A stretch of 24,101 nucleotides of DNA from a virus, in IMG/VR virus record IMGVR_UViG_3300025118_000144, positions 1-24,101 of that record, one strand, 5' to 3'. Made by a program: the position numbers and the translations under genes. The notes beneath the pieces were generated by a model. That model did no database searches and was not told the DNA's origin. It worked only from the letters and a program-made list of their open reading frames with translations. Shown here in pieces: positions 3,041 to 24,096 of the stretch. The number at the start of each line of letters is the position of its first letter. Positions within the stretch are counted from its first letter, which is position 1.

Positions 3041-4040
3041 TTGCAAAGAGTGTGGGGATTCATTTGATTCTTTAAGGAGTCTCCACGCACATATAAAAAA
3101 ACACGGGAAGTTTCTCGGGGATTACTATGTGGAGTATTTCGCACGAAGAGATAAACTAACACAAGAGCTTCTCCCATTTAAAAAATACGATCAGTATTTC
3201 GCTGCTGACTTTCTCAATAAGGACAATATGGAAAAATGGTGCGACAAGGCACCTTACGAAGAAGTCAAAGAATACATAATAAAAACCCTAGGACAAAAAA
3301 AAGAAGACAAGAAACTAAAAGGAGGACCACCCTCCGTTTATTTGCAAACAGCAGAAATTCCCGATATAGACGTATGCAAGAAGGTTTTCGGAAGCTATGC
3401 CAAAGCCTGTAAGGAGTTAAGCATGGTCCCGATGCTGGCAGGACAGCTACCAAGTGAATTTAAAAACGATTACTCAAAAACAACTATCCTTGTGGATACA
3501 AGAGAGCAGAAGCCCTTGTCTTTCAGGAATTCAGAGTCCCTTAAGTTGGATGTGGGAGATTACGGAGTTGGGGGAGATTTATATGACTATACATTCGTGG
3601 ATAGGAAATCATACCAGGACTTCTGTGCAACTATAACCCACAGTTATAACCGATTTGTAAAAGAACTTAAAAGATGCAAGTCTTTGGGGTGTTATTTATT
3701 TGTGGTAGTGGAAACCTCTTTCGGAGACATGGAGGGGGAGAATAGGCGGGGGTATAAAAAGTTCAATCTTGATTATGTCTACCATATGATGAGACAGATC
3801 CAAGCTGAGTATTCTGATTGCTGTCAGTTTATATTTAGCGGCTCGCGAGAAAAAAGCGAAGAGCTTGTGCCCAAGATTCTTGTTTTAGGAACGAAACTCT
3901 GGAAAGTAGACGTTCAATACTTTTGGGATAAACAAATTAAAGATTATGGCGTGGATAGAAGGAAAACAAAAACTAAGTCGAGAGTTCAAGGATATAAACC
4001 AGTTAATTCTAGGCGAAGAGGGATATTTAGAGGAGACTGA
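3030..4040 (+). CDS. C2H2 zinc-finger / ERCC4-type nuclease
   Basis: With the ATG at 3030 the protein has 336 residues; a TTG at 3018 is a weaker choice. Residues 5-25 form a classical C2H2 finger, C5-x2-C8-x12-H21-x3-H25. Residues about 110-132 (IPDIDVCKKVFGSYAKACKE) resemble the FGS-type repeat found beside homing endonucleases. Residues about 152-290 match an ERCC4/XPF-type nuclease: VDTREQ at 155-160, GDY at 176-178 and VDRKSYQDF at 190-198, a variant of the GDX(n)ERKX3D active site with Asp for Glu. The C-terminus is very basic. It lies between the putative small and the large terminase genes, overlapping the first by 11 bases and the second by 95. A role in packaging, junction resolution or DNA trimming is plausible but inferred. 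Confidence 0.75.
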   Translation: MSYDCKECGDSFDSLRSLHAHIKKHGKFLGDYYVEYFARRDKLTQELLPFKKYDQYFAADFLNKDNMEKWCDKAPYEEVKEYIIKTLGQKKEDKKLKGGPPSVYLQTAEIPDIDVCKKVFGSYAKACKELSMVPMLAGQLPSEFKNDYSKTTILVDTREQKPLSFRNSESLKLDVGDYGVGGDLYDYTFVDRKSYQDFCATITHSYNRFVKELKRCKSLGCYLFVVVETSFGDMEGENRRGYKKFNLDYVYHMMRQIQAEYSDCCQFIFSGSREKSEELVPKILVLGTKLWKVDVQYFWDKQIKDYGVDRRKTKTKSRVQGYKPVNSRRRGIFRGD

Positions 4041-5811
4041 GGCGAAGATTTTGCTTTATAAGTTTCTGAGGGAAAATCCTTCCTTTGCTTGTGAATTGTT
4101 TACTGGTGTTAAGCTATTCCCTTTTCAGCACATGGCTATTAAGGCTATGATGGACTCTGACTACTTTTTGGGCATCTGGAGTCGAGGAATGTCTAAAAGC
4201 TTTTCTACGGGTGTTTTCGCGCTTCTAGACGCTATTCTGAACCAAGGTGTCCAGATAGGTATTTTGTCTAAGTCTTTCAGACAGTCAAAAATGATCTTCA
4301 AAAAAATAGAAGACATATCTAAAAGCCCCAAGGCCACCTTTTTTGCTCAATGCATAACTAGGGTTTCTAGAATGAATGATGAGTGGGTGATGGAAATTGG
4401 TCGGAGTAGTATTCGCGCCCTTCCTCTTGGGGACGGTGAAAAACTTAGGGGTTTCCGCTTCCAGCGCATAATTATTGACGAATTGCTTTTGATGCCTGAA
4501 AAGATTTATAACGAGGTTATTATCCCTTTCTTGTCCGTGGTGGAGAACCCTACTGAGCGCCAAGAGGTTTATGATTTGGAAACCCAGCTGATCGAAAAGG
4601 GTAAAATGAAAGAAGAGGAGCGAAGGACTTGGCAGGGCAACAAAATTATTGGTTTGTCCTCCGCTTCTTACAAATTCGAATACCTTTACAAGATATATCA
4701 ACAATACGAGACTTTAATTCTTAACGAGAACAAGCAGGACGGGGCGCATCGAACCATTATGCACTTTAGTTATGATTGTGCGCCCGAGCAACTTTATGAT
4801 CAAAATCTGATTAGCCAATCTAAGGCTACAATGAGCGATGCACAATTTGAGAGGGAATTTGGAGCGATATTTACAGATGACAGTTCGGGCTACTTTAAGG
4901 TCAGTAAAATGGCCAGCTGCACCCATCCAGATGGAGAGGGTCAGTGCGTAGAGGTACATGGTAATCCAAAAGACGAATATATTTTAGCCTTTGACCCTTC
5001 GTGGTCTGAAAGTGAAAGTTCTGACGATTTTGCGATGTTACTTATCAAGCTTAATAGGGACACAAGGAAGGGGACTGTGGTTCATGGCTATGCTTTGGCG
5101 GGAGCTAATTTAAAAACCCACATAAAGTATTTAGCCTTTGTTTTGACTCACTTCAACGTGGTAGCAATCGTAGGCGATTACAATGGCGGTGTCCAATTTA
5201 TCAACTCCTGTAATGAAAGCGAGATCTTTAAAAAACTGAATATCCACTTGGGTGTTATTGAGGCTGAATTAGATAAGGCTCAGGATTACGAAAAAAACCT
5301 TCGCAAATTAAAACATCAATATAATCTTAGCGCAAAAAACATTGTCTTTTTAAGAAAGCCAACTTCCCAGTGGATTAGAATAGCAAATGAATCTCTACAG
5401 GCAGCTTTTGACCACAAGCGGATATTTTTCGCGGGAGCAGCCATGAATGATGACTACCATATTCAGCGAAAGGCAAAAGTCCCTATTAAAGATTTAAAAT
5501 TTATTCAAAACGATCCTAATGAAAAGGGCACCGTTGGCGCGAGAATGATTGATTTCGTGGAACACCAGAAGGATATAATGGATTTAATTAAGGTTCAATG
5601 TGCCCTTGTCCAAATCACAACTTCTTTACAGGGAACTCAAAGTTTTGATCTTCCCTTGAATCTAAGAAAACAAACAGGTGCTGGCAAGGCCCGCAAAGAT
5701 TCCTATTCTGCCTTGGTTTTAGGCAATTGGGCGATGAATGTTTTTTATGACATGATGTCTGATGATGTGGCTGATATCCAAACTACCTTTACTCCAATGT
5801 TCATTTCTTAA
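3946..5811 (+). CDS. terL: Terminase large subunit
   Basis: 621 residues, full length for the family. This motor cuts concatemeric DNA and pumps it into the prohead through the portal. The ATPase domain shows a divergent Walker A-like segment with K84 (SRGMSKSF, 79-86), Walker B with D178-E179 (RIIIDELLL) and coupling motif III at S238-A240 (GLSSASYK). The nuclease domain shows D350 (YILAFDPSW), D411 (VVAIVGDYNGG) and a probable third acidic residue, D585 (KARKDSYSAL). The adenine-binding region is near residues 55-70 (KLFPFQHMAIKAM). The ATG at 3946 lies 95 bases inside the nuclease gene. It is kept because the next ATGs fall too close to the ATPase core and residues 30-60 look family-typical. 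Confidence 0.93.
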   Translation: MAWIEGKQKLSREFKDINQLILGEEGYLEETEAKILLYKFLRENPSFACELFTGVKLFPFQHMAIKAMMDSDYFLGIWSRGMSKSFSTGVFALLDAILNQGVQIGILSKSFRQSKMIFKKIEDISKSPKATFFAQCITRVSRMNDEWVMEIGRSSIRALPLGDGEKLRGFRFQRIIIDELLLMPEKIYNEVIIPFLSVVENPTERQEVYDLETQLIEKGKMKEEERRTWQGNKIIGLSSASYKFEYLYKIYQQYETLILNENKQDGAHRTIMHFSYDCAPEQLYDQNLISQSKATMSDAQFEREFGAIFTDDSSGYFKVSKMASCTHPDGEGQCVEVHGNPKDEYILAFDPSWSESESSDDFAMLLIKLNRDTRKGTVVHGYALAGANLKTHIKYLAFVLTHFNVVAIVGDYNGGVQFINSCNESEIFKKLNIHLGVIEAELDKAQDYEKNLRKLKHQYNLSAKNIVFLRKPTSQWIRIANESLQAAFDHKRIFFAGAAMNDDYHIQRKAKVPIKDLKFIQNDPNEKGTVGARMIDFVEHQKDIMDLIKVQCALVQITTSLQGTQSFDLPLNLRKQTGAGKARKDSYSALVLGNWAMNVFYDMMSDDVADIQTTFTPMFIS

Positions 5812-12645: not shown

Positions 12646-13806
12646 TTAGATAAATATTGGAGCGCTGCCGCAGCCGCTCATAAAGAAGCCGTTAGCAACA
12701 TCGTTAGGACCGCCTACCTGAGCAGTAAAGGTAAGGTCAACAGTTTTATTAGATCCGATACTGGAAGAGAACGACTGGCTGTCGAGTTTTACTCCTTTGA
12801 GTTCTCCTCTGATGGCTGGCGCAGTCCCCGATCCGTTAATGAAGAAGGAAACGTCTTGGACTCCTGAGTCTAAAATATTGACAAGGTTAGCTGTGTGTGC
12901 ATCGTTCATTACGGCACTAACATTCATGCTAACATCGACAGGGAAATCAACTGAACGGGAGAAGGGGAATTTACTCCCTAAGCGCTGAATTGGGGTTCTG
13001 GAAAGAGGCAAACTAACAGAAACGCTTTGGATATGAGCGCCATCATTGCCATCAATATCTGCGAGGCTTTCGCCATCGACATCAGCCAGAGAAACACTAA
13101 CATCTCCTGGGCGTAATGCTGTAATTGCAGCGCTACCTACTTCCACCCCCTCGACTCCCCCATTTGTAGTCGCGTTGGGAAGTGCGATGTAGTGCGGGTA
13201 AGCAGTTCCTGACTCCTGATTAATGGCGGGACTGCCAGTATTCCCCACATCAGAAGAAGAGCGCATATTAGCCCCTTCCATGGTAACACTAACAGTGGGT
13301 AAAGAACCCACTGACAAATCAAGGCTATAATCACTAAGGTAGCAGTTACCAATCCCGATAACACTATCGGAGGGATCCATAGCTTCTCCTGCGCCAGCTT
13401 TGTTCAAGTCTTCTCCATCGGGAGAAGTGACAATATACAGATTAACGCCCGAGGTATCCGTTAAGTGGCCAGAAGCAAAGTTTCCTTCAGCATCAGGAGC
13501 ACCTGTGGGAATTCCTCTATTAGAAGCTACTCCACTATTCTGGACAAAGAAACCCAGAGCCCTCTCATTAAAACCATCCGCGAGATAATAACTAAAATCA
13601 ACGTTTACGGTGGGAGGATCAATTACCATTGAATCAATCCTCGCGAGGTCTCCAAATTGGTTTACGTCCTGTCTATTGATAGTAAAGCTGTAGTTAGCGC
13701 TCTGCACTCTGCCTAACTGTTCAGCATCACCTGCGCCAGTTAAAGAGGCATCCTTGCTAACGAATAAGCCTTCTGATTGATAAATTACTCGGTTTCTATT
13801 GGCCAT
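12646..13806 (-). CDS. Putative tail tube (major tail) protein
   Basis: 386 residues, beta-rich, with Gly, Ser, Asp and Val abundant. Near the N-terminus, RVQSANYSFTINRQDVNQFG (about 33-52) followed by PTVNVDFSYYLADG (about 65-78) has the look of a tail tube beta-sandwich. The second half (DVSVSLADVDGES, SVSVSLPLSRTPIQRLG, FPVDVSMNVSAVMND) seems to repeat a similar strand pattern, so the protein may hold two tube-like domains or a tube domain plus an Ig-like one. It lies downstream of the terminator-type gene in the minus-strand block. A CTGTAAACA motif and AAGGGAAAG precede the ATG. A different beta-rich virion protein is the alternative. Confidence 0.62.
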   Translation of the reverse strand: MANRNRVIYQSEGLFVSKDASLTGAGDAEQLGRVQSANYSFTINRQDVNQFGDLARIDSMVIDPPTVNVDFSYYLADGFNERALGFFVQNSGVASNRGIPTGAPDAEGNFASGHLTDTSGVNLYIVTSPDGEDLNKAGAGEAMDPSDSVIGIGNCYLSDYSLDLSVGSLPTVSVTMEGANMRSSSDVGNTGSPAINQESGTAYPHYIALPNATTNGGVEGVEVGSAAITALRPGDVSVSLADVDGESLADIDGNDGAHIQSVSVSLPLSRTPIQRLGSKFPFSRSVDFPVDVSMNVSAVMNDAHTANLVNILDSGVQDVSFFINGSGTAPAIRGELKGVKLDSQSFSSSIGSNKTVDLTFTAQVGGPNDVANGFFMSGCGSAPIFI

Positions 13807-13825
13807 GATAAAAGATTCTTTCCCT

Positions 13826-13834
13826 TGTTTACAG
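13826..13834 (-). promoter_or_regulatory. Putative late-type promoter motif (CTGTAAACA, minus strand)
   Basis: On the minus strand CTGTAAACA starts 28 bases before the tail tube ATG at 13806, followed by a purine-rich AAGGGAAAG that could serve as Shine-Dalgarno. It lies in the 49-base gap after the preceding gene. Tail tube protein is needed in large amounts, so a separate promoter would make sense. Confidence 0.35.
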
Positions 13835-13855
13835 TTTTATTATTAAAATATGAAA

Positions 13856-14704
13856 TTAGGAGAAGCGATATCTGTGCTGTTCTATATCAAAATCTATAAA
13901 TCCCACATAAAGCTCATTAGCTAAAACCTTTCTGGTCCTATCACTTAGCTTCGAAGTCCTTACTTTGTTTACATAAAATGTTGTTTCTCCTACGTAGTCA
14001 CTTTTTATTTCTGTGTAACTATAGTCTTCTCCTTTTAGGTCTCCTAATTCCGTAATGGGATATCCTGACATAGGTATTGCGGCTATCGTTTCATCTACAG
14101 AATCCATAAAAATAGATAAAACCCCATCCAATTGATAAGTGTCTTCTGCTAGTATTACAGCCTTTGCTAGGACCACGGTGTCCTGCATTCCCCCAAAGGC
14201 AAAAGGTTTGTTCTCTGTTTCTGATGTAGAAAGGAAGATGGCGGGAACCACATCGTCGTAGGGTTCGATGTAAGTCCACGGTCCAGAGGGGAGCCTAGAG
14301 TTAATGGTATATTTATTTTCTACAATTAAATCATCCTCTGTGTCATTGGTGAGATAAACATTAAAATCCTTTACGGCAAAATTTCCTGTAATTGAAGAAT
14401 CTGTCGTATCTCCAGAGATTAGCGCCCTTCCATTATCGAAATCTAGAACAACACCATCATTTCTGCCCGAAAAATCCCCGTCTATGAAGACTCCCGAGGG
14501 GATTGTGGCTCCCGTAATTGAAGAATCAGTAACCCATTGCTTGTAGGGGCTCCCATAAGCGACGTATGTGGAATCAAGGTGGGGGTCGGCATAATAGAAA
14601 AAGTCTCCCGTAGTATTTGTATATGCCTCTCCCTTTTCCAAAAGGAAGTTGTCGAACCACAAGAAAAAAGAAGTGGTTAATTTGTGCTGGAACTGTTCAA
14701 TCAT
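13856..14704 (-). CDS. Putative tail terminator or neck protein
   Basis: 282 residues. The first 25 residues are a helix with aromatics (LTTSFFLWFDNFLLEKGEAY), followed by a beta-rich body. TDSSITG occurs twice (residues about 59-65 and 101-107), preserved also in the DNA. The C-terminal part (TFYVNKVRTSKLSDRTRKVL, then YVGFIDFDIEQHRYRFS) is mixed. It lies between the completion-type gene and the tail tube gene, where phages encode the tail terminator. The ATG overlaps the previous stop as ATGA, so translation is coupled. Assignment rests mainly on gene order. Confidence 0.45.
   Translation of the reverse strand: MIEQFQHKLTTSFFLWFDNFLLEKGEAYTNTTGDFFYYADPHLDSTYVAYGSPYKQWVTDSSITGATIPSGVFIDGDFSGRNDGVVLDFDNGRALISGDTTDSSITGNFAVKDFNVYLTNDTEDDLIVENKYTINSRLPSGPWTYIEPYDDVVPAIFLSTSETENKPFAFGGMQDTVVLAKAVILAEDTYQLDGVLSIFMDSVDETIAAIPMSGYPITELGDLKGEDYSYTEIKSDYVGETTFYVNKVRTSKLSDRTRKVLANELYVGFIDFDIEQHRYRFS
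14385..14404 (-). repeat. Direct repeat, copy 1 (encodes TDSSITG)
   Basis: This 20-base stretch matches 14511-14530 at 18 of 20 positions, and both copies encode TDSSITG in the same frame of the terminator-type gene, 42 codons apart. The near-identity at DNA level suggests a fairly recent duplication or conversion. Confidence 0.7.
14511..14530 (-). repeat. Direct repeat, copy 2 (encodes TDSSITG)
   Basis: Second copy of the repeat at 14385-14404, differing at two positions. It lies just upstream, in the gene's sense, of the PSGVFIDGDFSG segment. Confidence 0.7.
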
Positions 14705-15291
14705 TTCAATTCTTCAAATCTTTTTTTGTATTTCCTTATAAAAGAGGAGATATAGGGAGTGTTTTGAAATCCACCGCCCCTTATTTTCTTTACACGACTT
14801 TGAACCGCAGCCCCCGATCTGCCCCCACTTTTTCGCACTAAGTAGCCTAATCCTGAAATTCCTCTTTCAATTCCCTCTGCCCAGCTTCTGCCCGAGGCCC
14901 ATGGAAGGGGGGTGATGGCAAAAATTTCTTCTGCTGTGGGTAAATTAACCTTAAGGTTGATGCCGTATCCCTTTGCAGATCCCCTGAGGTCAGAATCATA
15001 TTGAAGGGTCACTCTTTCTAGTATTTCCAAAATGGGAGTTATTGGGCTACTTCCTTGACTAAACCCTATGAAGGCAAAAAGATTGCTTGTGCCTCCCAGT
15101 GTGCCGCTTATGTTGGACGCATTTGGTCCTGCCAGAATTTCTTGGGTAATCGGATGTGCCCTGAATTCGTTTATCATTTCTTGTTTAAGCTTATTGAATT
15201 TTTGTTTAGCCCTCTTCTCCAAGTCCCTTCTTGTTAATTTGGGAAGTTGGCGCTTAAGGGCTGAGGTAACATCTGCTTCTAGGGAGGACAT
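14701..15291 (-). CDS. Putative tail completion / neck protein (HK97 gp10-like)
   Basis: 196 residues. The N-terminus is a long basic helix (SALKRQLPKLTRRDLEKRAK). A Gly/Ser-rich loop near 57-80 and a central beta part (YGINLKVNLPTAEEIFAITP) follow. The basic Gly-rich C-terminus (SRVKKIRGGGFQNTPYISSF) ends in a helix. This layout and size recall the HK97 gp10-type tail completion proteins that join head connector to tail. It is second in the minus-strand block: its ATG overlaps the preceding stop by one base (TGATG) and its stop overlaps the next start (ATGA), so three genes look translationally coupled. Family call is tentative. Confidence 0.5.
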   Translation of the reverse strand: MSSLEADVTSALKRQLPKLTRRDLEKRAKQKFNKLKQEMINEFRAHPITQEILAGPNASNISGTLGGTSNLFAFIGFSQGSSPITPILEILERVTLQYDSDLRGSAKGYGINLKVNLPTAEEIFAITPLPWASGRSWAEGIERGISGLGYLVRKSGGRSGAAVQSRVKKIRGGGFQNTPYISSFIRKYKKRFEELK

Positions 15292-15761
15292 CAGGACTCT
15301 ATGGGGCTAAGAATAAAGGTATAAAACTGATTAGAGGTAAATCCTCTGGGACGCCCGTCACTTTCAATTATAAATTTGTTTCCATCAAATTCTACTCTGC
15401 GAGCTTCCCTTAGGTAGTCATATGCGGTTTCTTTAACCACAATTCTTACGGTTCCATCGGGAACAACCACTTTATTTTGGGTTCCTGCTTGTTCTGAGGG
15501 ACCGTCATTGGTTAGATAAGATGTATCCATATCATCGTAGTAAATTCTCGCCTCAAAAGAATCGGATACGGTGGTATATTCTACAGAACTATTTGCTCCC
15601 GTGTTGGTTTTGCGATACAGAGAGTTCCAAGCCGTAGTGGAGGCTATTAGGGTCTTTTTTGCGTTCTTGTAGACTGTAATAGTGCGGGCGAAAGTGGTGT
15701 GTAGTGTATCGGCCAAATCCCTAACTTTTATAATTTGGTCTGCTGATAAAAATCCTGCCAT
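15291..15761 (-). CDS. Putative head closure (stopper) protein
   Basis: 156 residues, first gene of the minus-strand block. After an N-terminal helix (SADQIIKVRDLADTLHTTF) it is mostly beta strands (RTITVYKNAKKTLIAST, GTVRIVVKETAYDYL, RRVEFDGNKFIIES), as expected for the small beta-barrel closure proteins that seal the connector. In canonical order this gene follows the adaptor, here encoded at 11730-12221 on the other strand. A GTGTAAAAA motif starts 14 bases before the ATG at 15761. The diverging plus-strand gene starts at 15807, so the 45 bases between must hold promoters for both directions. Confidence 0.5.
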   Translation of the reverse strand: MAGFLSADQIIKVRDLADTLHTTFARTITVYKNAKKTLIASTTAWNSLYRKTNTGANSSVEYTTVSDSFEARIYYDDMDTSYLTNDGPSEQAGTQNKVVVPDGTVRIVVKETAYDYLREARRVEFDGNKFIIESDGRPRGFTSNQFYTFILSPIES

Positions 15762-17877: not shown

Positions 17878-20800
17878 ATGCCACTAAGAATACCAGCAAC
17901 AGTAACGGGGCTAGAAGCTAGCATCCGAGCCCAAGCCAAGAAGGCTGGCAACGCGATGAAGATCGATATGGGGGCGGGGTCTAAAAGCATCAATAGTTTA
18001 TCTCAACCCTTGGGCCGAATCACTGGTAAGGCAGACCAGTTTACCAAATCAATGGAGGCGGCTAATGCCCGTGTTTTGGCTTTCGGGGCATCTGTGGGAG
18101 TATTGTCTGCTGTTACGCGAGGGTTCAAGGAATTAGTTAATACGACTATTGAAGTAGAGAAACGATTGGCTAGCATTAATGCAATTCTAGGAGGTACAGG
18201 CGCACAACTAGACCAATTTAAAAAAACTATCTTTGAGGTGGCTCGTAATACTGAGCAATCCTTTGATACTGTATCCCAAGCCGCCTTGGAATTAAGTCGC
18301 CAAGGCTTAAAAGCGGAAGAAGTTACGAAGAGGCTTGGTGATGCGATGATATTGACTAGGTTGTCGGGACAGGGTGCGGCAGAAGCTGTAGCTGGTTTAA
18401 CCGCAGCGGTAAACAGTTTTAAAAAATCGGGTATAACCAGCGCCGAAGTCGTCAATAAATTTTCAGATGCCGCTAAAAACGCTGCGGTTTCAGAGAGAGA
18501 TTTAGCCGAGGCTGTTAAAAGGGCGGGTTCTGTGGCTCAGATCGCGGGGGTGAGCTTTGATGAGTTAATCGGTATTGTCAGTGCGGTGCAACAAAAAACT
18601 TCGCGTGGCGGTGCTGTTATCGGTAACTCCTTTAAAACTATTTTTACTCGCATTCAAAGTCTGGACAAGCTCCAAACCATGCAAAAGTTAGGTGTTCAAG
18701 TAACGGATACTTCGGGGGACGTATTAAATGCCACACAATTAATAAAAAATTTAGCTACGACTATAGAAGACCTCCCCGACGCGAGAAGACTACAAATCGC
18801 AGAGAACTTAGTGGGAAAATTTCAAGTTGCCCCATTTGTCGCAATTTTAGAAGATTATAATGACCAAGCATCAATAGCAGTACGATTAACAGATGTTTCC
18901 CAAAACGCTGCGACAGCCGCTTATGAGCGAAATGCGGCTCTAAACAAAACCTTATCAGCAGCTATTAACGAGGCCACAGTTAACTTAAAAGAGTTAGCTA
19001 ATACATTGGGAGAAATAGGTGTCACCGATAGCCTTAAAAATATTCTTAGCTTTTTCAACTCTTTAGTGGGCAACATTAAAGAGCTGATGGAGGGAGAAGG
19101 AATTGGTAGTGACTTCGCCCGAGGGATAGTAAAAGGCATAGGTAATATCATTAGCGGACCTGGGTTGGCTATCTTCGGAGCCGTTATTGCTAAGCTTACC
19201 CTTGATTTGGCTAGGTTTGGAGTGGGTTCTTTGCAAACTTTCTTTGGTTTAAACAAGGCCGCGAAAGAACAGTCTGCGCTGCAAGGGCAAATAGCCTCGA
19301 CTCTTATGAACAGTAAGAGTATTCAAAAACAGATTTTAGCTATTGAAAATAGTTCTTTAACCACAGAGCAAAAACGAGCGGCACAAACTAAGTTTTTCAC
19401 CATCGCCCTTAATGAACAGTTGCGGATAATGACGCAAATGCAAGCTATATCAGCCAGAGTTGCTCCTGGTGTGGCAAGGGGTATTGGGGGCAAAAGAGGA
19501 AGAGCGGCTGGAGGGTTTATTCCTAATTTTAATATCGCACAGAGTTATGGAAACGAGCAAGCTGATATAGCGAGGGGGGTGGGTGGTGCACCGAAAAGTG
19601 CTCGTCCTGTTACAATGCCCAACTTTAATTTCGGTGGGGGTCAGCGCGGGACGATGGTGGCTAACACTAGTGAGTTTGTGGTTCCTGATTTCGCGGGTGG
19701 GGGATCTGCTATATTTAATCAGAATATGGTTAGCTCTATGGGATTGCCAGCTGGTGCGAAAAAAGTAGGCGCTGCGGGGGGATATATTCCTAATTTTGCT
19801 GGCCCCACCGCTATACTTAGGAATTTAGGTATTACCACACAAGCCCAATTTAATGCTGCGGTTAAAGCACAGGGAGGAACGGGGACCACACTAAAAACCG
19901 CAGAGGGAAATGTTTCTCCTGCTCAAGCCAAAAACACTTTTAAGAGAGGGGCGGGACAAAAGGGAATGCTAACAATTTCTCAGGGCTACAGATATGGTGT
20001 CGCAGCTTTATTTCCTAGCAAAAAAACAAGCGATACTGCGGCTACTTTTGCAGGAGAGAGTGAAAACGAAGGCATTCTGGGATTGAGGCAACGGGGGTTC
20101 ACAGGGATGACACTGAAAGGTGTCCAAATCTCTGATTTGCAGACCATGCAGAGGAAAAAGAGAAGGGGGATGAAGGAGTCTGAAAACAGAAAAAAGCTTG
20201 GTCGTCTCTTCGCTGAACCATTGCTTAGATATGGAAGTGAACTTATAGGAGAAACATTCAGCAATGACGAAGCTAGACAAATAAGAGGTAAAATAAAATC
20301 AACTGGCGGTCGGGGCCGAGAAGGTTCAAAATTATTTAGCACCGCTGTCGAAGGCGGCATTTTTGAATCTGCCATAAGTCTTGTCACCAAGGGCGCTGGA
20401 GCTATTCCTGAATTTAAAAGTCACAACACTGAAAGAGAGCCGTTTGATTTCGAAGAAGGAGGACGGGCAGATAATAAATTCAAAAAGGCATTTGGATTTA
20501 GAAATGATTTAGTCAGAGCTGACGCGAAAAGAACCTCTTCTAACAGCGCTGTTCAGTCATTAATTTTTAAAGCTTTAAATGATCGCGCTGAACGCACCTA
20601 TATTTTTCAGAGGGCCACCGCACAGCAAAAAGCAGGTAAAGGTTTAAAGCCCTTAAAGCTCGCTGCTGGAGGATACATCCCTAATTTCGCTGGGCCGCTA
20701 GAAGACGCAATAGCCAGAGAAAGCGCAACTGGGGTTCCCATTAACCAAGTCAGGGTTAATCAAGCGCCCAAGCTGCGTAATGCAGGAAACCCAATGGGTC

Positions 20801-23800
20801 TTGCTGTGACCAACATGAGAGATGAGCCTACTGGAAGGGTTCCTAATTTCGCCAAAGGAGGTGCGGGAGGAAGTGGGGGAGGTATAGGGGGGGCTACCAG
20901 TGATTTGTTGACAAAGTTTATTGTGTTACAAATGGTGGTATCTGGATTGAGCGGGATTGTCAGTGAGACAAGTAGCAATGCCGAAACCTTTAACAAGGCA
21001 TTGAAAGCCATGAATCTTGCTATGACAGCTATGTTTGCTGCGTCTGCTTTCGGGGGTGTCGGGAAAACATTTAGTAGCGCAGGACGTTTATTAACTGGGA
21101 AAACTGGCGCGGATCTGGCGGCAAGGGGGAGGAGGATGACGGATCTCGGTAGAGTGAAACTTTCCCGTCCATCAACTAGCATGTTACCTCCCGCTAAGGG
21201 AGTTGGAATGGTTGCGGGAGGAGCCGCCAGAACCCTTGCAGGATCGTTTTTATCGGTAGCTGGTCCTGTGGCTGCGGTCGGTATTGCGGCATACTCGCTC
21301 TCTAAAGCCTTTGATTATTCAAGCGGAAGAAGTAATTTGGCGGCTCTTAATACAGAAGCACTAGCTACCAGCACAAGGATAGCAGAAAAAGAACTGGCCG
21401 CTTTAAAAGTCCCCGAAAGCTTTAAAGCATTAATGCGCCAAGATGCTAAAGCTATGGATAGGGATGTACAGGGATATACAGAAATGAGAAGGGCGGGGAT
21501 GGGTCTTTTTAAACCCTTCGGGGATTTTAAAGGGAGCATGGACAAAGAATTCAAGGCGGATATCGGAGGAATGTCGGCGGCAGCGATTACAGAGGGTATT
21601 TCCCGACGAGAAATATATACGAGGTTGGGGAAAATGAACCAAGAGCGCTTAGAAAGAGGGGATATCGCTAAATTCGATCCCAAGGAAGAGGTCCAAGCCT
21701 TTTTCGAGGGGCTGGAGACACTGATGATGAAGTTTAATGCTCAAACAACCATATCTACAGTGGCTAATGCGTTGCCTCCCGCATTGCTGAAAGAACTTAC
21801 AGAGACCAGCAGGTTGGAGGCCGAGGGTATATCATCAGGGCTGGGGATGAAGCCTGAAGATAAACGACGAAGATCAGCAGCGAATCGACAACTAAGAGAG
21901 TTCGCTGTTGGGGCGGGAATCGAAGGAGCAGATGTAATTAGTTCATCGCTTCTCGCGAAGGGAGTAAGAACCGCTGTTAAGACTGGAGATACTCCCGCAC
22001 AAAGACAAGAAAGAATAAGAGCGGATATGGCCAAAATCCGACTGACGACAGAAATAGACATCGCCAAAATAAAAGCTAAAGCTATAAGCAAGGATCAAAT
22101 AGCCTTGCAAAACGCGAGAGCGCTAGGAGAAGCCAGTAAACTACAATTACTTGATTTAGAAAAGAGGGTTGAGCTAGACGAGGGCCGAACAAAGAGGGAG
22201 TCATCTATAGTAGACATTCAAAAAACGCAGATATCGAACTTAGAAAGTTTAAATTTTGGGGTTGAAGAGGAAAAAGCTCTAAAAGAACTTATAATGAGTA
22301 AAGACTTAGAACAATTGGCTAGTTCTGAAGATAGGAGAGCCGTTCTATCTAACATTATAGATCTTGACAAAAAAGGAGCAAAAGAGGCAGCTCTTATTCT
22401 CCAAAGATTCGAAGAACAAGTAAGATCCATCAAAAAGAAAGGGGAGGCTCAAGATGAAAACTTGGAAAAAGACTACGAGGCCAAGAGAGTAAGCCTAGAA
22501 ATAGCGCGAGCGGAAGAAAGAAGATTAAGAACGCTCAAACGAGAGGCAAGAATACGGGCAGATTTGAGAGATGCTCTTTTGGAAAGATCTGAAATAGGAA
22601 CCGCAGCGGCTAGAGGATCTATAGAAAGAAATGTAAACTTAACCAGCAGAGAACGAGCAAGGGCTTTGTTTGATATATTACCCCAAGCTCAAGCTGATCA
22701 AAGACAAGGGTTTGAAAATAGATCGCTGAAAGAGATTAATGATCTTCTGAATAGCATTGATGCGAATAAATCTGGCTTAAAGCGCTTTACAGACGATCTG
22801 CGAGAAATTTTGTCCGATCCCGAGCTTGGCAAACAAGGGCTTGGAGCGGTGCTTACAAAATTAGAAAAGTTGACAGGAATTGAAAGGGGGCTGTTCCCTG
22901 AGTCAATTTTGCTGGAGGGAGGCTATGATAAAAGAAACACAGCAATGAAGGATATTATAGACCTCTTTAATCGGTTAGGAATAAGTTTGGAAAATTTTGG
23001 GCTAAAACTTGATGCTGAGGCGGATGCCATCAAGGACGGCTTAGGCAAATTTGCTAAAGCCCCCGAAATACTGGCTGAGACGGTCCAAGGACTTGCAGAG
23101 TCGACACAGCGACTTAGAGCTAATGCTGCGTTAGCTACAACAGCGGGAGAGTTTATTTCTGGGGCTAGAGGGATTAGAGAAAACGTTCATAGGGGACGGG
23201 TTGACGGCAGAGATCTAGCTGGCCAATTTTCTATAACCCGAGAGTTTGCTCTACAAGGTTTGCGGGACACAGCTAGAACGGGAATCACTAAAGCAGAAAG
23301 AAATCAAGCGGGGAGAGAGCTGGGATTCGTCAACCAACAATTTGACTTACAAGAACAGCTTATCGAATTATATAAAAATGAAAAAGACAATTTAGAGGAG
23401 ATCAAAAGAGTCGAGGACGAAATACTAGACATCGACAGAAAAAGAAAAATGGTCAACCAAAGTATTGCCGCTTTGCTTGAGGATACTTTTATTAAGAGCG
23501 CTGAAGATATCGAAAGAGAATTTGGAAGAAACATGGTGGCAAGTGCAGAACAATTTAAGAAGACCATAACCGATGGAATGGTTGACGCAATTGTTTTGGG
23601 GCAAGATTTAGGGGACATTCTGAGATCGGCTGCTACAGATTTTTTCACCCAAGCAGCCAAGCACAATATGGCGGCGGCTTTCGATAGTCTTCTGTCGGGA
23701 ATCGGCGGGGGAGGTAAGAAGAAGGACAGTGGCGGTGGAAATGTATTGAGTTTTCTGGGGGGGATTTTTGGCTACCAAACAGGTGGTTTAGTAAGGGGAG

Positions 23801-24096
23801 GTTCTGGAACAAGAGATGATGTTCCAACGTTACTAACGGGTGGCGAGTTTGTTGTTCAAAGAGATGCTGTAAGCCAATATGGAGTAGGATTCCTAGAGGG
23901 TCTCAATAGGGGAAATGTCGGTCAAATGCAAAGAGGAGGCCTCTTTACCCCAGGAACTTATGGACAGGGAGCTATTAGCGGCAAGGGAAATCTTTTAGAT
24001 TTCGCTACTCAGTCTTTCACTAGCGGTCAATTCGACCAAATTAGAGGGGGTACTGGATTTGGATCAGTATCGTTAGAACCACAAAGCGAAATCTAA
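17878..24096 (+). CDS. Tail tape measure protein with embedded nuclease-like region
   Basis: 2072 residues, which at about 0.15 nm per residue suggests a tail near 300 nm if all of it spans the tube. The N-terminal 340 residues resemble the TP901-type tape measure core (VEKRLASINAILGGTGAQLD, SRQGLKAEEVTKRLGDAM). Hydrophobic segments lie near 425-445, 1012-1030, 1044-1061 and 1123-1140. Long charged coiled coils fill about 1170-1920. The C-terminus (YQTGGLVRGGSGTRDDVPTL, then GGEFVVQRDAV, 1966-2000) is a common tape measure ending. Odd features are GG(F/Y)IPNF repeats at 543-552, 632-643 and 929-940, with a weaker copy at 986-993, and between the second and third a PD-(D/E)XK-like signature. 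The stop at 24094-24096 lies 5 bases before the window ends. Confidence 0.85.
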   Translation: MPLRIPATVTGLEASIRAQAKKAGNAMKIDMGAGSKSINSLSQPLGRITGKADQFTKSMEAANARVLAFGASVGVLSAVTRGFKELVNTTIEVEKRLASINAILGGTGAQLDQFKKTIFEVARNTEQSFDTVSQAALELSRQGLKAEEVTKRLGDAMILTRLSGQGAAEAVAGLTAAVNSFKKSGITSAEVVNKFSDAAKNAAVSERDLAEAVKRAGSVAQIAGVSFDELIGIVSAVQQKTSRGGAVIGNSFKTIFTRIQSLDKLQTMQKLGVQVTDTSGDVLNATQLIKNLATTIEDLPDARRLQIAENLVGKFQVAPFVAILEDYNDQASIAVRLTDVSQNAATAAYERNAALNKTLSAAINEATVNLKELANTLGEIGVTDSLKNILSFFNSLVGNIKELMEGEGIGSDFARGIVKGIGNIISGPGLAIFGAVIAKLTLDLARFGVGSLQTFFGLNKAAKEQSALQGQIASTLMNSKSIQKQILAIENSSLTTEQKRAAQTKFFTIALNEQLRIMTQMQAISARVAPGVARGIGGKRGRAAGGFIPNFNIAQSYGNEQADIARGVGGAPKSARPVTMPNFNFGGGQRGTMVANTSEFVVPDFAGGGSAIFNQNMVSSMGLPAGAKKVGAAGGYIPNFAGPTAILRNLGITTQAQFNAAVKAQGGTGTTLKTAEGNVSPAQAKNTFKRGAGQKGMLTISQGYRYGVAALFPSKKTSDTAATFAGESENEGILGLRQRGFTGMTLKGVQISDLQTMQRKKRRGMKESENRKKLGRLFAEPLLRYGSELIGETFSNDEARQIRGKIKSTGGRGREGSKLFSTAVEGGIFESAISLVTKGAGAIPEFKSHNTEREPFDFEEGGRADNKFKKAFGFRNDLVRADAKRTSSNSAVQSLIFKALNDRAERTYIFQRATAQQKAGKGLKPLKLAAGGYIPNFAGPLEDAIARESATGVPINQVRVNQAPKLRNAGNPMGLAVTNMRDEPTGRVPNFAKGGAGGSGGGIGGATSDLLTKFIVLQMVVSGLSGIVSETSSNAETFNKALKAMNLAMTAMFAASAFGGVGKTFSSAGRLLTGKTGADLAARGRRMTDLGRVKLSRPSTSMLPPAKGVGMVAGGAARTLAGSFLSVAGPVAAVGIAAYSLSKAFDYSSGRSNLAALNTEALATSTRIAEKELAALKVPESFKALMRQDAKAMDRDVQGYTEMRRAGMGLFKPFGDFKGSMDKEFKADIGGMSAAAITEGISRREIYTRLGKMNQERLERGDIAKFDPKEEVQAFFEGLETLMMKFNAQTTISTVANALPPALLKELTETSRLEAEGISSGLGMKPEDKRRRSAANRQLREFAVGAGIEGADVISSSLLAKGVRTAVKTGDTPAQRQERIRADMAKIRLTTEIDIAKIKAKAISKDQIALQNARALGEASKLQLLDLEKRVELDEGRTKRESSIVDIQKTQISNLESLNFGVEEEKALKELIMSKDLEQLASSEDRRAVLSNIIDLDKKGAKEAALILQRFEEQVRSIKKKGEAQDENLEKDYEAKRVSLEIARAEERRLRTLKREARIRADLRDALLERSEIGTAAARGSIERNVNLTSRERARALFDILPQAQADQRQGFENRSLKEINDLLNSIDANKSGLKRFTDDLREILSDPELGKQGLGAVLTKLEKLTGIERGLFPESILLEGGYDKRNTAMKDIIDLFNRLGISLENFGLKLDAEADAIKDGLGKFAKAPEILAETVQGLAESTQRLRANAALATTAGEFISGARGIRENVHRGRVDGRDLAGQFSITREFALQGLRDTARTGITKAERNQAGRELGFVNQQFDLQEQLIELYKNEKDNLEEIKRVEDEILDIDRKRKMVNQSIAALLEDTFIKSAEDIEREFGRNMVASAEQFKKTITDGMVDAIVLGQDLGDILRSAATDFFTQAAKHNMAAAFDSLLSGIGGGGKKKDSGGGNVLSFLGGIFGYQTGGLVRGGSGTRDDVPTLLTGGEFVVQRDAVSQYGVGFLEGLNRGNVGQMQRGGLFTPGTYGQGAISGKGNLLDFATQSFTSGQFDQIRGGTGFGSVSLEPQSEI
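19504..19533 (+). repeat. IPNF peptide repeat 1 (AAGGFIPNFN)
   Basis: Tape measure residues 543-552 read AAGGFIPNFN. Weaker relatives follow at MPNFNF (580-585) and VPDFAGGG (602-609). This copy opens the Gly-rich stretch that separates the N-terminal tape measure core from the inserted region. Confidence 0.75.
19771..19806 (+). repeat. IPNF peptide repeat 2 (AAGGYIPNFAGP)
   Basis: Tape measure residues 632-643. The peptide is identical over 12 residues to repeat 3, but 7 of the 12 codons differ by synonymous changes. It forms the left edge of the nuclease-like region. Confidence 0.85.
19807..20661 (+). other. Embedded PD-(D/E)XK nuclease-like region in the tape measure gene
   Basis: Tape measure residues 644-928, between two identical IPNF repeats. 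The region holds GGIFESAISLV with E830 in a likely helix, then PFDFEEGG with D857, then RADAKRT with D882-A-K884, followed by a helix (SAVQSLIFKALNDRAE). Order and spacing (E, then D, then D-x-K, then helix) match the PD-(D/E)XK nuclease core. A basic helical part precedes it (KKRRGMKESENRKKLGRLF). The assignment is by eye and needs profile or structure comparison. A non-catalytic relative or a chance pattern remains possible. Confidence 0.45.
20662..20697 (+). repeat. IPNF peptide repeat 3 (AAGGYIPNFAGP)
   Basis: Tape measure residues 929-940, identical in peptide to repeat 2 but recoded at most synonymous positions. It forms the right edge of the nuclease-like region. A degenerate fourth copy (GRVPNFAKGG, 986-995) follows 46 residues later at 20833. 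Confidence 0.85.

Follow-up and report, generated by a model that had tools for sequence, protein, structure and literature searches.

Does the tape measure protein (TMP) of an uncultured phage carry an enzyme of its own, and could that enzyme enter the host during infection? The question arises from a 24,101 nt stretch of viral DNA (IMG/VR record IMGVR_UViG_3300025118_000144, positions 1 to 24,101; hereafter the window), in which an initial annotation had read part of the TMP as a PD-(D/E)XK-like nuclease set within the helical tape, and had proposed that it might be delivered into the host from the virion. The ORF encodes a TMP domain and a long helical tape, the tape being judged by composition only (Table 1). 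Residues 644-928 correspond to the coordinates first given for the segment, and E830, D857, D882 and K884 lie at the positions assigned to them. The description of this segment, hereafter the cassette, as unlike the helical tape around it was correct in part. It is strongly basic and was predicted by AlphaFold to be mixed alpha/beta, in contrast to the Ala/Glu/Lys/Leu/Arg-rich tape at approximately residues 1150-1880; however, it is located in a Gly/Pro-rich region ahead of the tape and does not interrupt it.

The cassette is flanked exactly by two identical 12-residue copies of AAGGYIPNFAGP, encoded by different codons. In general form this boundary motif reads [AG][GS]G[YF]IPNFA. The flanking repeats had been missed in the first reading of this DNA and extend it.

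Table 1. Features of the TMP gene and of related cassettes. Coordinates are window positions unless a locus is named.
Feature	Coordinates	Strand	Evidence
Tape measure protein (TMP), 2072 aa	17878..24096	+	Pfam PhageMin_Tail 9.4e-29; PHROG tail length tape measure 2.8e-44
Conserved TMP N-terminal domain, residues 118-313	18229..18816	+	Pfam PF10145 match
Linker motif 1, AAGGFIPNFN, residues 543-552	19504..19533	+	418 occurrences of the motif, spread over 167 ORFs in the fetched loci
Linker motif 2, AAGGYIPNFAGP, residues 632-643; left boundary of cassette	19771..19806	+	Corresponding motif marks where swaps break on the left
Exchangeable nuclease-type cassette, residues 644-928	19807..20661	+	Invariant E-D-(D/E)xK-(K/Q) site in 131 homologues; AlphaFold models; pI 10.35
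G826-G-I-F-E830, predicted catalytic Glu in long helix	20353..20367	+	G 127/127; E 124/127, D 3/127
D857, predicted metal ligand	20446..20448	+	D 128/128
D882-A-K884, (D/E)xK on predicted strand	20521..20529	+	D 85/127, E 42/127; K 127/127
K898, conserved K/Q in following helix	20569..20571	+	K 114/121, Q 7/121
Linker motif 3, AAGGYIPNFAGP, residues 929-940; right boundary of cassette	20662..20697	+	Right breakpoint of swaps
Linker motif 4, EPTGRVPNFA, residues 983-992; end of conserved C-linker	20824..20853	+	
Helical tape region, ~1150-1880 (approximate boundaries)	21325..23517	+	Composition only: G+P 8%, A+E+K+L+R 51%
Conserved C-terminal region, ~1880-2072	23515..24093	+	Present in 68/120 ORFs searched, many of them truncated
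P-loop cassettes of related TMPs (examples)	L016:6538-7005, L066:2786-3253, and 14 others		

Relatives were fetched by scanning IMG/VR with a degenerate DNA pattern for the linker motif. The pattern occurred at no fewer than 119 loci, and among the matches listed nearly all came from one TMP family and had the motif in a single large ORF homologous to this TMP. These homologous ORFs, again among the matches listed, conserved the N-terminal 641 residues and the linker after residue 929, and differed in the intervening sequence. Single-sequence searches of IMG/VR that used either the cassette or the N-terminus of the TMP as query returned no relatives, a search of 50,697 phage isolate records gave no match to the cassette, and the C-linker had no credible match among phage isolates. 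No cultured relative with this slot was found, as matches from isolates covered only the general TMP domain, at approximately 23-28% identity. The cassette-bearing TMPs belong to an uncultured group of tailed phages. Only three matches to the linker-motif pattern were present in approximately 85,000 prokaryotic genomes, and these phages are therefore hardly ever seen as prophages. The terminase large subunit encoded in the window (3946-5811, +) had distant isolate matches to Bacillus, Lactococcus and Clostridioides phages, some of them annotated YonF; since the terminase matches were distant only, the lineage is remote from cultured phages. Elsewhere the window contains a PhoH-like gene (147-863, +; PHROG, 5.4e-56) and a possible phage sigma factor (1234-2004, +), with a marginal match to sigma-70 region 2 (4.5e-5) just under Pfam's cut-off. 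Four minus-strand ORFs (12646-15761, -) break the otherwise plus-strand module, and Pfam was blank for the three that were scanned.

PD-(D/E)XK nucleases share a pattern of a Glu in a helix, an Asp, a (D/E)xK on a strand and a K/Q in a helix, in which D and E are interchangeable before xK. We identified 153 cassette matches, 131 of them distinct, by iterative HMM search over all fetched loci. These homologues were very divergent, with a median pairwise identity of 18%, and only four of the 118 well-filled alignment columns reached at least 95% identity. Among these columns G826, E/D830, D857, D/E882, K884 and K/Q898 were chemically invariant, with few other conserved positions. The order E, D, (D/E)xK held across the homologues, with spacings of 18-33 residues from E to D and 19-36 from D to DxK. 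Neither D857 nor D882-x-K884, the loss of which had been named at the outset as grounds for abandoning the nuclease reading, was lost in any homologue covering the site, and E830 was replaced by D in three.

Some of these loci (45) had come from a search pattern containing GxxFE, and we therefore recounted using only the 99 rows that the linker motif by itself had fetched. Where the residue was present, the site was invariant in this subset too (G826 95/95, E/D830 95/95, D857 96/96, D/E882 95/95, K884 95/95, K/Q898 89/89), so its conservation is not a product of GxxFE-based fetching. As judged from these alignments, the conserved residue set is not a chance pattern. It is a predicted PD-(D/E)XK-type active site, a description that applies to the site and not to the fold. 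A basic pI was found in 83% of cassettes.

AlphaFold2 modelled the cassette with a pLDDT of 80 and pTM of 0.65 from 21 sequences, and with a pLDDT of 86 and pTM of 0.81 from 120 sequences. The canonical PD-(D/E)XK core is alpha-beta-beta-beta-alpha-beta, with D and (D/E)xK on adjacent strands. In the model E830 lies in a long helix, D857 in a loop, D882-x-K884 on a strand and K898 in the next helix. The layout first described, D882-A-K884 followed by a helix, is present, but the customary beta hairpin that would link the Glu helix to the Asp is missing and three strands lie N-terminal to the helix instead. Foldseek searches of PDB and BFVD with two cassette models, together with VIA-align, found no PD-(D/E)XK or other related fold. 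Profile-profile comparison with hhalign, for the Mrr and UPF0102 families only, was not significant for the cassette, while these two profiles matched each other with 94% probability as a positive control. Short local matches, themselves non-significant, placed GxxFE over the helix of Mrr and DxK over the ExK of UPF0102. The cassette had no sequence match in Pfam, PHROG, PADLOC or PDB; scans of 126 cassettes against Pfam, PHROGs and PADLOC gave weak matches only, and PDB sequence searches with the nuclease cassette were empty or spurious. The cassette therefore resembles Mrr and UPF0102 in the order E, D, (D/E)xK, K/Q and in its GxxFE helix, which is like that of Mrr, and differs from them in having no significant profile or fold match, in its predicted strands N-terminal to the Glu helix and in being internal to a TMP.

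One alternative is that the cassette is not a nuclease at all but a structural tail domain of new fold, in which the invariant residues make up a metal or nucleotide site of another kind. A confident AlphaFold model with no Foldseek match, and the absence of a profile match to the two PD-(D/E)XK families, are what this would predict. However, the residue order and the D/E interchange before xK are the established PD-(D/E)XK pattern, and the surroundings of the site vary freely whereas the site never does. We regard this alternative as distinctly unlikely. The nuclease reading of the initial annotation is thus upheld in its residue conservation and unconfirmed in its fold.

Nuclease-type cassettes occupied the slot in 71 of the 72 complete TMPs (both flanks present) fetched by the linker motif, among the matches listed, and in 113 of 114 when loci fetched by the cassette were included. 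The sole exception, L024, did not match the nuclease profile and holds cassettes of other kinds. Some relatives had been expected to be without the segment, but none was seen: the slot is always filled, and it is the occupant that is swapped. TMP pairs with N-terminal domains 96-98% identical had cassettes only 25-29% identical. Four independent swaps could be followed at the DNA level in TMPs with 85-96% flank identity, where similarity ended 1-5 nt past the upstream motif and returned 5-16 nt before the downstream motif. Between L030 and L048, for example, identity was 94.7% until 3 nt past the motif, was followed by approximately 750 nt of unrelated sequence, and was back at 95.6% starting 6 nt ahead of the next motif. 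L016/L067, L053/L114 and L012/L055 showed this breakpoint pattern too. Positions at most 9 nt from a motif edge make up approximately 1.3% of the swap-pair ORFs. On this comparison of sequences, the cassette is exchanged precisely at the motifs between near-identical TMPs. A survey of TMP mosaicism reported a mosaic signal in TMPs without its authors confirming genuine recent cases (PMC10684548), whereas here swaps with near base-level boundaries were seen.

Swap breakpoints at the motifs could also be expected of a selfish, homing-type nuclease unit that cuts the motif-coding DNA and so spreads from one TMP gene to another, and nuclease genes have been reported where phages exchange sequence (PMC10448857). 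Against such a unit, empty target alleles, the mark of a homing endonuclease or intein, were absent: an empty slot was seen in none of the 114 complete TMPs. The motif is conserved mainly as protein, with a third-base identity at matching fourfold sites of 0.41 versus a background of 0.34, and these synonymous differences mean that there is no conserved DNA target. Cassettes that are not nucleases also share the same boundaries. Homing is therefore very improbable as an explanation of the slot. An intein-like reading was dropped separately, as inspection of the junctions by eye revealed no residues of the splicing type.

The reading that we favour, with a probability of roughly 60%, is that residues 644-928 are a modular, metal-dependent nuclease held in a motif-delimited cargo slot of the TMP, borne in the virion and delivered into the host. 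The predicted catalytic set would be E830, D857, D882 and K884, with K898 assisting. As part of the TMP, the cassette would be packaged in the tail tube; if the TMP leaves the particle before the DNA does, the cassette would reach the cell envelope or cytoplasm and could then, at an early stage of infection, cut nucleic acid of the host, of plasmids or of rival phages, its most likely target being DNA already in the cell. It is as protein that the constant motif would be recognized, whether for processing, for docking or as a joint between modules, and any cassette between two copies would therefore be tolerated. Several copies of a folded 30 kDa domain may not fit in the tail lumen, and processing at the motif would solve this. 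The rapid replacement of cassettes suggests an arms race over a target or inhibitor, and its frequency is in keeping with a conflict in which the opponents are host inhibitors, plasmids or other, rival phages.

A nuclease could also be retained for the phage's own purposes, acting in assembly or on its own genome (end processing, ejection control or the binding of DNA ends in the tail) instead of serving as an effector against the host. Near-universal presence fits such a housekeeping role. Comparison of the examined swap pairs over approximately 4 kb upstream and 1.7 kb downstream showed no neighbouring gene that changed along with the cassette, and there is accordingly no sign of a cognate immunity gene. 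However, housekeeping enzymes are rarely found at 18% median identity and replaced wholesale between TMPs that are otherwise 95% identical, and the filling of L024 with cassettes other than the nuclease type also argues against such a role. We consider an own-genome function unlikely, although it deserves more weight than the structural and homing alternatives.

Delivery of the cassette as a virion-borne nuclease would have parallels in other phages. Virion-injected enzymes such as T4 Alt are likewise carried in the particle for immediate action on the host; unlike the cassette, Alt is a head protein in its own right, with ADP-ribosyltransferase activity. Thermus phage P23-45 has a virion RNA polymerase fused to its TMP, so that, as in our case, an enzyme domain is built into the TMP and is presumed to leave the tail with it; the polymerase is N-terminal, and the accessible text of that report describes no exchangeable, motif-bounded cassette (PMC10770324). 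The lambda TMP has been labelled near the inner-membrane protein ManZ (PMC13190303). By analogy, the P23-45 and lambda TMPs may serve as precedents for the delivery that we infer. MuF polymorphic toxins of temperate phages follow a similar logic, in which a phage structural protein carries variable effector domains with proposed delivery into host bacteria (PMC5576092). MuF belongs to the packaging module of temperate phages, whereas the cassette is internal to a TMP, was seen with no immunity gene and is bounded by a motif nearly absent from prokaryotic genomes. The TMP also departs from the MuF arrangement of an N-terminal MuF domain and C-terminal toxin, as Pfam found only the tail domain. 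An adjacent cognate immunity gene, as polymorphic toxins have, was not found in the swap pairs, where the flanks are constant; a distant gene is possible. The openly accessible literature that was searched did not describe a nuclease slot bounded by motifs in TMPs. If the favoured reading is correct, the tape measure doubles as a cargo carrier, and virtually every member of this group brings a swappable nuclease-type domain in its virion. Phages would then have a natural, modular code by which enzymes are loaded into their tails. The TMP mosaicism that the recent survey could not confirm would gain an explanation, and effector injection by siphophages, in the style of contractile injection systems, would become testable.

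Multiple cassettes occur in some TMPs, every one of them flanked by motifs. The second common type, a cluster of 16 with the same bounding motif, has the P-loop GPAGSGKST and conserved arginines, with weak matches to AAA_30 and a P-loop match at 6.9e-6. A broader and more tentative proposal, which we hold at somewhat less than even odds, is that the motif ([AG]GG[YF]IPNFA) marks a general TMP cargo slot, serving as a protein-level address or processing site. Injected enzymes would be exchanged and stacked there: a nuclease as the default, P-loop proteins, and perhaps domains resembling kinases, phosphatases or ADP-ribosyltransferases. The result would be a polymorphic effector system with the tail as injector.

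Several further cassettes were inspected by eye. Kinase-like features (glycine-loop, GDLHGSN and IDxG-type motifs) were noted in L113:1099-1674 (-), L026:2622-3194 (+) and L024:6772-7419 (-), ADP-ribosyltransferase-like features in L107:1715-2242 (-) and L024:7927-8550 (-), and an HAD phosphatase-like DYDYT in L066:935-1531 (-). PDB and other database searches gave no support for the names HAD, kinase and ADP-ribosyltransferase, and we do not claim them for these cassettes. Replacement can also extend beyond the slots: in some pairs of close relatives the tape beyond the last motif is likewise replaced, starting at a motif, as in L016 and L067 downstream of the fourth motif (L016:7964-10023).
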